NCBI GenBank assembly: GCA_963921795.1
Contig: OY997661.1
Location: 40,751,466 to 40,815,465, forward strand
From: Nannobrachium achirus
Lineage: Eukaryota; Chordata; Actinopteri; Myctophiformes; Myctophidae
DNA length: 64,000 bases
Direction of reading: 5' to 3'
In this document: one piece after another, positions 1,293-64,000 of the stretch
Layout of the letters: every line of letters begins with the position of its first letter
Position numbering within the stretch: position 1 is the first letter of the stretch
Translations under genes and position numbers: made by a program
Notes under the pieces: generated by a model
What the model was told of the DNA's origin: nothing
Databases searched by the model: none
Seen by the model: only the letters and a program-made list of their open reading frames with translations

Positions 1293-1570
1293 GCAGTGGT
1301 TCTCAAAGTGTGGTCTGGGGACCCCCAGGGGTTCTTTAGGAAGTTCAAGGGGGTCCACTCCACAGAAAAACGAGGAACCGTTTTACCACTTTAACCCTAT
1401 GTTATAATTTGTTTGAAAATGGCCGATCTTCAAGTTCACAATGCATACCATTACTACCCAGTTTGAGCTTGTAGATGGGCTATTTTCATTTTGATTAATC
1501 TTGAAAACTTCCCTGGCAGAAAATATGCACATACATGTCATTTTGGGGGTCCTTGATATGAAAATGTTTG
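1293..1570 (+). mobile_element. hAT-type element fragment with palindromic module
   Basis: It starts with CAGTGGTTCTCAAAG, a typical hAT (Charlie-like) terminus, followed by GGGGACCCCCAGGGG. A degenerate GATCTACAAGCTCACA-type palindrome lies at about 1418-1488. The right end runs into a TG microsatellite and no target duplication can be read, so the boundary is approximate. Confidence 0.55.
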
Positions 1571-1573
1571 AAA

Positions 1574-1729
1574 GTGTGTGTGTGTGTGTGTGCGCGTGTG
1601 TGTGTGGCTGGGATTTGTGCTTCTCGGTGTGCTTTGAGATAGAGGGGGACAGGTCTTATCTTGTTCAGAATGTTTAAAATGCTCCACACACACACACACA
1701 CACACACACACACACACACACACACACAC
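1574..1729. repeat. TG and CA microsatellites
   Basis: (TG)n with a CGCG interruption covers about 1574-1606 and (CA)n covers 1685-1729. They are separated by about 80 bp of unique sequence. Reading frames across them are low-complexity artefacts. Confidence 0.9.
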
Positions 1730-1738
1730 TGGTTGTTA

Positions 1739-59439: not shown

Positions 59440-61835
59440 GCCTATACATGCTCCTAGAGAGTGCTGATATCTTGTGTATACAGGAGACTTTTCTAGAGAC
59501 GGAAGAGCTTGATAAACGTATTTCTGTTCACAATGATTTCCATCGGCAGGGGATCTACAACAGATTTAAGTGCTAGAATAATGTGTTGCTGGATCCAAGG
59601 GGAGTGGCCATTCCATAGCATAAGAAACTGGATTCACTTGTCAGTGTGATTAGGCTGGAAGTGGACTGGTTCATAGGCATTACAATTGTTCATGATAAGA
59701 AGGTTTTTATCATTTTAAATGTTTATACTGTACTCCTTACGAATGTCACAAAAATTAGAATGAATACCTTAATTAATAGGCTTGCTTTTATTAGTTCATA
59801 TATTAAAGAAAATTAATACACATGCATGTCATAGGCAACCTGAATGCTTACATTTCAGATAGCAACTCTATGTTTGGTAAGCATTTAATGCAATTTTGTA
59901 AAGAAAACAAGGTTATCCTGTCCAGCAAGGTGCTGCTGCCAGTAGGCAGTGATACATACATATACTGTATTAGTAGTCTCGCGTAGCCAGACAACTATTC
60001 CACAATCTCCGAATGCTATAGAGAGTCTGGAACTACAGCTCCTGAACAGCGAGTAATGGAAACTGGCATTACCGTTCAAGAAAATATATTTTAAAATGTC
60101 ATTTCTGCTAAGCAGCAAGCTAAATATGCTTAGATGATTTGTATGCATATAATGATAAATGTGTGCGATGTGAGACGGAAACGGAAGTGAGGAGGAGGCT
60201 TCACTTCCGCTTTAACCGGGTACTCATCGTTCTTCTTCCGTTATCCCAGACTGTATGACGGGAGTATATGCAAATCGCGGAGACAACAGTCTGGCCATGC
60301 GAGACTACTGTATCAGTGAAGCATGGCGTTCACATCCTGTTTGGATCACTGTATACAGCTGATGAAGTATAGCGATGGTTGAGATATTGTATGATATGTT
60401 ATGGCCACAGCTGACCACATGCCCGTCACAATATCTGTAAATGTTAAGACTCTACCCGGCAGTCAAAAACAAAGTGATAAGTTGAACTGGGCAATCCTCA
60501 ATGAAGACGATTTGCAACAGTACAAATCACTGACTGAAGTATACTTAAGTAACATTGACTTACCAGTAGATTCAACTTTGTGGGGAAACTTTAAAGATGA
60601 TGGCCATTATAGTGAATTGTGTAAAATGTATGACAAAATAGTAAAATGTTTAATTAATGGAAGCAAACCTTTTAAAAGAAAATGGGTTAAACAGAATAAC
60701 ATGAGACCTGGATGGAATGCCTACATGTAATGTAGAGGCTAAAGAAGCTTTTAAATGTTGGGCCTCAGCAGGTAAACTAGGCATGGCCCTGAGTGTGACC
60801 ACAAGAAAGCATGCAAATGCTAGGTTGCTGTATGCTATATTAAAAGAAAAAAGCATGCCATGAGGGCAAATTCTATGGCCAAAAAGCTACAGAAAAATAA
60901 TGTCTATGAGTTCTGGAAGGAGGTGAAGGTGGTTAACAACAGTAATATGCCAATGCCTTCCAGTATTGATGGCACTACTGGGTCTGAAAATATTTGCTGA
61001 GGGGTGGAAAATACACTATGCAAATATCTTTAACTGTGTCAAGAGTGATGTTTTTAATACTGAGTTACCCACAGTGATGGTGTGATTATTATATATGATG
61101 AGGTGAGCAGCCTTATAGAGAAATTGGCTTAACAAAGCATTTCAAGGTCAGATAACAGCAGAACATCTGAAGCACACTAGCCATATAGTTTCAGTGCTGC
61201 TTGCTGTGTTTTTCAGGGCTGTTGATGCATGGCATACTGCCTGAATATATATATATAATATATATAATATATATATAATATATCTGTTCTGCCATTGCCA
61301 GTTGTCAAAAACAAAACTGGGAAGTTAACAAGCATTGATAATTACAGACCTATTGCACTGGCAAGCATTCTGTCCAAGGTACTGGAAGGTAAGGCTCAAT
61401 GAATATACAGCAAATACTGACAACCAATTTGGTTTTAAGAAAAAGCATGGCACTCATTTATGTATTTATACACTAAGGACATTGTCAGTCAGTACAGAAG
61501 ATGCAACAGTACTATATTTATGTGTTTCCTTGATGCGTCCCAGGTATTTGATCACATCAATCATGGTAAACTGTTTTAAAGCTAAAAGAGCGTGGTGTTT
61601 CCTTATATCTACTGTAATAAGGATCCTGCCGTTTTGGTATTCACACCAAAATATGCAAGCAAAGTTGGGAATACATTACATCCACTCGACTTCTGGTGAC
61701 CAATGGGGTACGCCAGGGAGGAATTATGTTGCCTGTACTCTTTAATTTGTACATGGACGACCTATCTAAACAGTTAAATGAGTGTCAAACTAGTTGGTGG
61801 AGATAACCTTATTAATCATATGATTTACACTCATG
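59440..61835 (+). mobile_element. Decayed non-LTR retrotransposon ORF2 (endonuclease and RT)
   Basis: Endonuclease part: SADILCIQETFLETEELDKR near 59460-59530. A middle part (DHMPVTISVNVKTLPGSQ and on) at 60413-60730. RT motifs follow: DNYRPIALAS near 61338, NQFGFKKKHGTHLCIY near 61420, and FLDASQVFDHINHGKL, VTNGVRQGGIM and LFNLYMDDLSKQLNE near 61540-61790, in more than one frame. The catalytic YADD region reads YTHD near 61830, where the copy is cut off. Several stops and shifts make it inactive. Motif style is like vertebrate CR1/L2/Rex1 groups; I cannot assign the clade. An element at 59974-60307 interrupts the endonuclease. Confidence 0.7.
59974..60307. mobile_element. MITE with 9-bp target duplication inside the LINE
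   Basis: Termini TAGTCTCGCGTAGCCAGAC and GTCTGGCCATGCGAGACTA are inverted. CTGTATTAG (59965-59973) and CTGTATCAG (60308-60316) match at 8 of 9. The LINE frame resumes after it. An internal CACTTCCG / CGGAAGTG pair adds symmetry. Confidence 0.75.
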
Positions 61836-61849
61836 ACTTTGTAGTTGCT

Positions 61850-62340
61850 CAAGCTTCTAATCGTACAAACCTTTCAACACCTCAGAGCATTCAAAATTAT
61901 CATGGAATGTCTTAGCACACCTTTGGGCGGAATTGTAATTATTGCTCTTGGTGAGCAGAGTGTGTATTCAGAGCATTCTGTAGCTGTCAGTGTGTGACCT
62001 TTGACCTCTAGTGAGAATCTTCTGATGGCCAGGAGATAATTTTGCCCAGGTTAACAGGTTTTTTAAGATGCATTCTTCATTCCTGTCCTGTCGGTTTCAG
62101 CCGCCTTGTCCCAAGGCAGTGGTTTAAAGTCAGTGAGGTCATTGTGCGTGCCTGCGTACGTGCGTGTCGGTCAACTAGCAGGTCTCTCTGCTGTGCTTTT
62201 AGGTGTGCTTTGAGAGAGAGAGAGAGAGAGAGAGAGAGAGAGAGAGAGAGAGAGAGAGAGAGAGTATGGAGGCCATTTGCACATTGATGTGTACAGGTGT
62301 AAAATGTGTGTATAAAATGAATTTACAGGCCTCATATTAT
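61850..62340 (+). repeat. Direct repeat B flanking the LINE region
   Basis: Second copy of the 58.2-kb repeat, with the GA microsatellite at 62213-62264. It starts within the LINE's last readable codons (GTTGCTCAAGCTTCTAATCG), text also present at the start of copy A. Confidence 0.75.
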
Positions 62341-64000
62341 GTCTATGGGGCTGTTAAGTTTGACATCATTTTGTAGGCAGAGGAGAATTTCTGCCCCCAT
62401 GGCCCCTTCCACTGACTACAGCATTTTGCTTATATTAAAACATACATCAAAAGTCCAGTTCCAATGCCAATATGTTCAAAATAAAACAGCATAATGGCAA
62501 ATAAACATTGCTTTCTATTCATTGGCGTACACGTACACCCATTTGAGAAACACTGATCTATTGGACCAAGGGTGTGTGAGTGTGAGTGCGTACGTGCGTG
62601 CGTGCGTACGTGCGTGCGTGCGTTGTTGTGTGAGCTCAGGGTTTAGCATGTTTAAACATGAGCAACAAGATGTCCCGTTATTCCTTTAGTCACTCACTCT
62701 CTCTCTCTCTCTCTCTCTCTCTCTCTCTTTCTCTCTGTTCAGTATTGCAAAAATGAAAAACATACACATGAGTGAATTATATGGCATTTAAAATCAATTA
62801 TGATGCATTATAGACCTGACCTTTAAGTAAAGTGTTACCAAAAATAAAACCTGTTGCCTAAAAGACATCTGTAGTTCTCTGACTCCAAAATGTCTTTCCT
62901 GGTCAGCAGCAGATTCTCACTAGAGGTCAAAGGTCACACACTGACTCCGAATAGACCAACTGGGCTCCGAATAGACCAATTTCTTGTTTACAAACATTGA
63001 GACTAAATGCACAGGTGGCTGTTTCATGTAATCAATTCCCAACAGATCCCCAAACCTGTTGTTTTGGGGAGCGCTGGTTTCAGTTCATTCAACCTCTTTT
63101 GTGTGTTGGCTAGTGGGATGCACCCATGGGTGCACCCTTATCGAGACATATAACTTCATTGCGCAAGGGTATTGCTCGTCGAGAGTAGCTGATGTACAAG
63201 CTCACATGGCGTCACCAATGCAACTGTTCTGAGCTTGGAGGTCTGCGCGCGACACCGTCGCAGGATGGAGCATAAATTAGGCTTCATGGACTGCAGCTGG
63301 GCGAGCAGTAGACGCTCTGGTGATCATGAGGAGCACTCCCTCCGTTCTGATGACGGTGAATGGAGGTGGGGTTTGAAGGAGAACTGTTTTGAATCGCTAT
63401 TATTTGGTTTCGACCTGCGCGCGCATCTAGGTTCTTATCAGTTTGACGTGGACCAAAATTTATCCCATACACACTCTGCACAGAAGACACTGAATTAACT
63501 CCTGAACAATTATTTAAGGCTATCCGATCCTACTTTGCCCATCTCCTCCTCCTGGCCAAGGCTGAACTCCTCTATCCTGCTCTATAACCAACAAGAGGCT
63601 CCTTTGGGGAGGTATTGGGGACCTCTGAGGTCTTGAGGTGACACAGGTGCGTAGATATCTCTAGTACGGTGGGGTTATTCCTGCCTTGAGCTCTCCTTCG
63701 TCTCACCAGCTGCTACAGCCGTGCGCCACCTGTGACCCCTCTTGTCCACGTGTGGTCCTGGCTTGATGTATTATGGCCTTCGGTGTTCTTGCAGGTCTTT
63801 TCTCAGTGACACTTCACTGCCAATGTCTCCCCAGCTGATGTTGTTTGGATGAGCCGTCTCCTTATCTGTGATTAATTCCTGGCTGTTACAGTTGTTTGTA
63901 TTGTTGAGTCTCACATACCCCCCATCTCGGGAGACTCTGGGGGTATCTGTCTCTCCAGAGTCACCAAACTTCCTTGGTTGCCAATGGTATACTTGACCCT
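62341..64000. other. No gene recognised; repeats only
   Basis: A TGCG/ACGTGC tract at 62580-62622, CT microsatellite at 62692-62737, an inverted fragment of the flanking repeat at 62.91-62.95 kb, and a palindromic module at 63185-63246. The last 60 bp (CTGTCTCTCCAGAGTCACC onward) match 3447-3490, another dispersed repeat. Confidence 0.5.

Follow-up and report, generated by a model that had tools for sequence, protein, structure and literature searches.

Hairpin-forming short inverted-repeat elements are known from teleosts: Izsvak et al. reportedly described Angel and other such elements in 1999 and proposed a hairpin-based amplification for them. In this study we analysed a stretch of 64,000 nucleotides from the fish Nannobrachium achirus (assembly GCA_963921795.1, contig OY997661.1, positions 40,751,466 to 40,815,465 of the forward strand; the whole stretch is called the window), in which a palindromic DNA module recurs inside small transposable elements. 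This module is like Angel elements in being found in fish, having inverted repeats and forming a hairpin.

Coral CMITEs (Wang et al. 2010) are the closest precedent for an interior that stays conserved while the ends change. They are flanked by TTAA duplications, and one coral was estimated to hold about 1,600 of them (PMC2872659). In CMITEs, as in our case, a short interior is better conserved between families of miniature inverted-repeat transposable elements (MITEs) than the terminal repeats are, and TTAA-type ends, tandem arrays and the origin of a new element via nesting are further likenesses; the words ‘palindrom’, ‘hairpin’ and ‘secondary structure’ are absent from that paper's text (PMC2872659). 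In contrast to CMITEs, the hosts of our module vary in duplication type (hAT-like 8-bp and TA-type, not TTAA), and exact two-arm copies alone outnumber that estimate about 50-fold. For a mobile hairpin with compensated arms the nearest precedent are bacterial REPINs (Bertels and Rainey 2011). Our module shares with them (PMC3116915) inverted conserved 16-base arms, a kept spacer length, a hairpin, compensatory changes and single-arm remnants, and in the well-sampled families inverted conserved arms do form a hairpin with compensatory change. Unlike REPINs, which are units of their own tied to RAYT transposases, the hairpin studied here is internal to other elements, and conservation is not significantly lower in its solitary arms than in its paired arms (1,364 of 10,000 permutations). 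Human MADE1, a palindromic mariner-derived MITE, is likewise a near-perfect palindrome (80 bases) with many copies (PMC1784062), but it is built from two 37-base terminal repeats set back to back. In our module it is the middle of the arm that is conserved; the outer edges differ between families and are not conserved termini adjoining a TA duplication.

We show that the hairpin is present in tens of thousands of copies within several otherwise unrelated kinds of small element. Between the best-sampled element families both arms changed together, hence their source lineages stayed near-perfect palindromes.

Abundance and form of the hairpin

The module is a palindromic core with arms of about 38 bases and a 3-base loop. 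In the window the arm GATCTACAAGCTCACA has 63 matches at up to 3 mismatches (mean of 0.66 in 100 shuffles) and 26 two-arm copies at up to 4 mismatches, so the recurrence reported in the initial annotation is real; 26 of the 28 two-arm coordinates that it listed matched at the latter threshold, and those at 15890 and 52130 are, by eye, shortened two-arm copies. We then searched the whole assembly of 1,658,514,493 bases in 564 contigs (1.66 Gb). The 16-base arm GATCTACAAGCTCACA has 158,789 exact matches and the reversed pattern none. Both exact 16-base arms lie 3–30 apart at 22,439 places, and both 11-base outer arms 10–40 apart at 79,657 places.

With up to 4 mismatches allowed, a sample of 287,221 bases, composed of the window, eight 3-kb loci fetched by the arm (one overlap trimmed) and twenty unselected 10-kb stretches, contained 82 two-arm copies (47 in unselected stretches, 9 in arm-fetched loci, 26 in the window) and 89 arms without a partner. 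The span is exactly 53 bases in 62 of the 82, though the middles differ. At up to 3 mismatches, the 264,000 bases of the window and the unselected stretches held 140 partnered and 36 solitary arms, with 2 matches for the reversed control. Single-strand folding gave the expected hairpin in all four copies tried (z −9.4 to −14.6; 0 of 200 shuffles as good). No Rfam family matched the window at the gathering threshold, the 53-base pattern was not found in IMG/VR or the prokaryote genome set, and no description of the hairpin was found within the open-licence literature.

Host families

The flanks sort into groups with unrelated ends: A, A2 (containing unit B), D, F, C and V, and the smaller E, G, K, T and U. 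At least three host families with different termini had been proposed from the window, and hosts with unrelated termini are indeed present, among them hAT-like elements with 8-bp duplications, a mostly TA-flanked MITE and a TTAACC-ended unit. The hosts have the terminal inverted repeats and target duplications of MITEs or non-autonomous DNA transposons; superfamily names such as hAT-like are putative and were assigned by the length of the duplications and by end motifs. Family A has hAT-like CAGGGGCGTC ends and two modules per element in inverted orientation, family A2 has hAT-like CAGGGGTCTTCAAC ends and its unit B the motif TTAACCACTTGAACCC, and family D has hAT-like TAGGGCTGTCACGAT ends, with the duplication CCTTACGG at locus L024 (8/8 bases). 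At A and A2 ends, 7 of 8 bases are duplicated in L005, L027 and L023. Family F has CAGTGGTTCTCAAC-like ends. In family C (TCGTCGTTGTCGGG ends) TA adjoins both ends in L023, L045, L046, L049 and L051, and does not do so in the L053-type and L055-type contexts, L047 and L052. The flanks of family V are common to most of 14 fetched copies. The motif TTAACCACTT[TG]AACCC (up to 3 mismatches) has the module within 400 bases in 34 of 48 cases.

Similarity between groups spans the arms (AAAATAGC, GATCTACAAGCTCACA) and fades outward. Because C and G share additional flank beyond TAGTG, and A and T along the stretch preceding the module (both by eye), the host groups are not all independent captures. 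The outer edges vary by family (TAGTG, TTTG, TTGTG, GCC), and in C, D and G both outer edges are flanked by TA. At L008 the module lies between unrelated inverted ends (33 bases, 97%), and L007 looks the same by eye. Around position 375 of L035 a module is enclosed by an inverted repeat of 214 bases (93%), which by eye includes a tRNA-like CCCAGTTCGAATCCGGG stretch.

Arm changes between and within families

Paired arm changes were counted genome-wide in two exact-pattern tests, with independence expectations worked out by hand. For ACAAG/ACATG, 79,657 places have both arms original and 11,930 both changed; mixed forms number 672 + 668 = 1,340, where about 21,800 would be expected under independence. 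For GATCTAC/GACCTCC the double changes number 4,701 beside the same 79,657 originals, and the mixed forms 14 + 12 = 26 instead of about 8,900. Among the matches listed, 52 distinct 53-mers had 636 of 728 inner cells paired (87.4%), against 74.1% when shuffled and at most 41.8% when slid. In alignment A1 (36 copies across groups, 39 pairs) 85.3% of 1,404 cells are paired and 20 of the 39 pairs show both-sided change, compared with 13.4 in shuffles; many of these copies were fetched via exact-arm patterns, which makes the outer arm over-conserved in A1. The covariation score of the stem is 0.218 against 0.116 in shuffles that retain relatedness (0 of 500 as high; slid controls 0.053–0.078).

When the consensuses of C, F, V and A were compared by hand over 25 inner pairs, the six comparisons gave 25 both-sided and 6 one-sided differences, and all six of the latter are A's two fixed asymmetries. 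All 10 inner differences among C, F and V (also by hand) are both-sided. The founders were thus near-perfect palindromes in C, F and V; A and E are exceptions, and the small groups are thinly sampled.

Copies within a family behave differently. Family C (65 oriented strings, 34 pairs) has 75 one-sided and 5 both-sided changes, none complementary, and all five both-sided ones fall at the mismatched pair described below. This sample comprises all 64 listed strings of full length 95 and one of length 97 that is shifted in register towards its right end, where it supplies 5 of the 75 one-sided changes. We counted 20 one-sided and no both-sided changes in 13 copies of V, and 26 one-sided and 2 both-sided changes, again none complementary, in 19 distinct copies of F. 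As the changes are nearly all one-sided and none is complementary, copies in these families decay, and we conclude that pairing was upheld in source lineages and not in ordinary copies. In-place homogenisation of the arms was not seen in C, F or V copies. Homogenisation at every transposition is disfavoured as well, because the F variant ACTCC, a one-sided change, recurs at three dispersed places. In less clean groups complementary doubles do occur: the single double difference in the A class (8 copies) is complementary, and so are both of those in the TCAAA class (5 copies) and 11 of 18 in the pooled rest (21 copies), which mixes subfamilies.

The initial annotation had suggested that the inner arms differ between copies yet stay complementary, and that selection or copying maintains the hairpin. 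The former holds between families, and upkeep of the hairpin is seen between well-sampled families only. Inside C, F and V the arms decay independently, and complementarity also fails at the fixed one-sided differences of A and E. The outcome named as refuting the annotation, an alignment of full flanks to one ancestor without covariation, did not occur, since the hosts have unrelated termini and the arms differ between families and stay complementary.

The preserved mismatch and the inverted loop

A mismatch, C.T on one strand and A.G when read from the opposite one, stands beside GATC in 45 of 65 C strings and in 9 of 14 V copies. No other pair inside the arm is unpaired as often in A1 (22 of the 36 sequences), and A.G/C.T is the commonest mismatch at this pair in 121 two-arm copies (36/121). 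The persistence of this mismatch across families speaks against wholesale arm copying. The loop of family C reads ACC in 42 of 65 strings and its reverse complement GGT in 9; 82 copies oriented by one arm have ACC 37 times and GGT 20 times, and GGT outnumbers every one-step variant of ACC. For template switching between inverted repeats two effects are described, homogenisation of the arms and inversion of the spacer (PMC8604942). A loop in both orientations would be the mark of such switching.

Loss of the module

Has the module been inserted into family C, or lost from it? Counted by the bases between flank tokens, C places with 0–26 bases number 150 + 150 and those with 55–85 bases 5,160 + 5,270. 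By eye, a collapse of GATC-GATC is the commonest junction among the 100 short copies listed out of 300; apart from the TA-only sites described next, the short copies resemble deletions whose junctions lie at short repeats. At 16 of 79 places module-less C sites read ATTTAAAC-TA-CTTTTGTGCG. We considered a precise insertion, with these TA-only sites as pre-insertion sites, and rejected it: comparison of the flanks favours loss for six of the 16. The module-less L044, L048, L053, L054 and L056 have a larger context in common with the filled L019, L026 and L059, and L055 shares its context and an internal deletion with the filled copy at 53469 of the window. Since the module occupies one and the same position in several contexts, repeated insertion would be the more complicated assumption, and by parsimony these six sites are probably losses. 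The remaining 10, for which the sample holds no filled sister, may be either losses or pre-insertion sites, and a clean empty site was not found. An inner hairpin nested at GATC, with GATC as its duplication, was rejected too. Its collapsed form is present, yet outer-only forms (GAAAATAGCNGATCNGCTATTTTC; AAAATAGC type) occur at 315 places genome-wide, and because of this rarity deletion is the simpler explanation. At L026, positions 2581 and 5630 with their neighbouring modules recur 3,049 bases apart and are nearly identical, a recent local or assembly duplication.

Possible explanations

Why do some MITEs reach very high copy numbers, and are palindromes kept by mutation bias or by function? 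The module bears on both of these old questions: within a single genome several element families, three of them with thousands of copies, share one homologous hairpin, and the dead copies serve as a natural mutation control. Tentatively, with a probability of roughly 0.42, we propose that the module is the internal cargo of a network of non-autonomous DNA transposons and that its arms were rewritten in short tracts in source copies. Several MITE families with unrelated ends carry the hairpin. Individual copies decay arm by arm in C, F and V, and hairpins are lost via deletions with short-repeat junctions, as seen in C. The coupling of the arms might come from short-tract template switching between them, during replication or repair, in source copies; such switching would homogenise the arms and could invert the loop. 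Copies bearing the hairpin might more often become sources, and new host families might arise as a carrier nests in, or recombines with, another MITE.

Several results weigh against this proposal. Shuffling leaves the relatedness among copies in place. In a consensus table of 38 pairs, 36 comparisons of nine groups gave a both-sided majority 14 times, a tie 6 times and a one-sided majority 16 times. Family E, with 2 copies and 12 unpaired positions, figures in eight of the 16, and each of D, G, T, B and K is represented by 2–5 copies. Unpaired positions in this table number none in C (6 copies) and F (10) and four in A (26), and in the larger sample of 65 C strings 1 of 34 pairs is unpaired in the consensus. 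Families A and E were amplified with fixed one-sided differences, and private complementary double changes were not seen in the C, F and V samples. Family V has both-sided changes 3 and 6 bases from the preserved mismatch, so that long rewriting tracts would have erased it. Finally, the inverted loop may go back to a single old event that a subfamily inherited.

It is quite possible that pairing itself was selected. The hairpin would then work in source copies, either at the DNA level, in replication or in access by transposase, or at the RNA level, with one-sided changes purged and compensatory ones fixed pair by pair. This would agree with the kept 53-base span despite a variable loop, with the one-sided decay of individual copies and with the both-sided changes close to the preserved mismatch, which suit pair-by-pair replacement more than tract copying; REPINs show a similar pattern, and their compensatory changes are called common (PMC3116915). 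Selection has to contend with the amplification of A and E despite their unpaired positions, and it leaves the preserved mismatch itself unexplained. Mixed V forms are also few next to the double and original ones, therefore no one-sided intermediate carrying both changes was amplified. Template switching in source copies explains the coupling and the loop inversion, selection better explains the mismatch and the pair-by-pair change, and both are compatible.

Descent from one palindromic ancestor with neutral decay, covariation being shared ancestry, is disfavoured, and we consider it unlikely. All modules are homologous, both-sided changes are mostly family-specific and may each be one old event, the shuffle tests leave shared ancestry in place, and where families are thinly sampled, their consensuses differ on one side as often as on both. 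However, neutral decay gives no reason for C, F and V differing only at both-sided inner positions while their copies change one-sidedly, nor for the scarcity of mixed forms. We also regard it as improbable that the module itself is mobile, as a hairpin resembling MADE1 or REPINs and inserting into other MITEs. The same core in many hosts, including the unrelated inverted ends of L008 and (by eye) L007, would fit such a unit, as would the TA at the outer edges in C, D and G and the 10 TA-only C sites without a filled sister, and the preserved mismatch could mark one strand. Yet the outer edges vary by family, unlike true termini, C and G share bases past the TA (by eye), and outer-only GAAAATAGCNGATCNGCTATTTTC forms are rare. 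A mobile hairpin entering other MITEs had been suggested in the initial annotation as well, and it found no support, as six of 16 module-less C sites read as losses by parsimony and no clean empty site was found. More speculative still is a vertebrate counterpart of REPINs, in which an enzyme acting on single strands would recognise the hairpin, the GATC mismatch would mark the strand, elements keeping it would amplify better and MITE families would be parasitised successively. The module offers a large natural test of palindrome upkeep, in which template switching and compensatory selection can be told apart directly by placing the changes on trees of the families.

Copies in the window and neighbouring features

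The copies in the window are collected in Table 1. Family A accounts for 16 of the 26 two-arm copies (14 by family grouping; 15680 and 39029 by their flanks), ten of them in a cluster at 38.7–42.1 kb, so that the window overstates the number of contexts.

Table 1. Hairpin copies in the window, with positions counted from its first letter
Feature	Position	Remarks
Two-arm hairpin, TTTG-edged family T	1425..1477	
Two-arm hairpin, B-like	3844..3899	TTAACC-type motif 53 bases upstream
Two-arm hairpin, B-like	9981..10033	TTAACCACTT motif 58 bases upstream
Shortened two-arm hairpin	15680..15714	Family A flanks by eye
Shortened two-arm copy by eye	about 15890-15931	Truncated partner of 15680..15714
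Shortened hairpin	22973..23005	Within element with 52-base inverted ends GTCCATACCTTACCCC
Two-arm hairpin, family A	23458..23510	
Two-arm hairpin, family B	29275..29327	Among the four folded
Two-arm hairpin, family A	31993..32045	Left half of inverted pair with 32310..32362
Two-arm hairpin, family A	32310..32362	Right half of inverted pair with 31993..32045
Two-arm hairpin	33615..33667	
Two-arm hairpin, type U	34817..34861	Both-sided change CTCTC/GAGAG; flanks match L065 by eye; among the four folded
Ten family A hairpins, one cluster	38696..42135	Repeated copies of CAGGGGCGTC composite; starts 38696, 39029, 39456, 39790, 40018, 40350, 40578, 41205, 41648, 42083
Two-arm hairpin, family A	46194..46246	Folding z −13.0
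Two-arm hairpin, family A	46483..46535	
Shortened hairpin	49445..49477	Within family C MITE (TCGTCGTTGTCGGG ends)
Shortened hairpin, family V	52127..52175	Both arms GACCTCCAAGC; flanks match L081-L094 by eye
Two-arm hairpin in family C MITE	53469..53519	Sister of module-less L055; folding z −14.6
Asymmetrical hairpin	63191..63243	Family E-like flanks by eye; GACCTCC form in right arm, not left

An array of GGTTAGGGTCAATTTGGTTTAATTTGCACCCTCTGACA-like units lies at 38054-39280, beside and within the family A cluster (by eye). Elsewhere, at G000:C1:469826-469964, arms stand in tandem on one strand at spacings of 43, 43 and 37, hence the arm has also entered a short tandem array. The window further holds a 625-residue frame with the fish-specific FISNA domain and with NACHT, NOD2_WH and NLRC4_HD2 domains (18837-20711, plus strand) and a PRY-SPRY frame (37336-37932); the combination of FISNA/NACHT with PRY-SPRY is familiar from fish NLR genes. 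A frame with a GIY-YIG domain (50289-50684, plus strand) may belong to a Penelope-like element, and an open frame of tandem repeats is found at 24290-24926.

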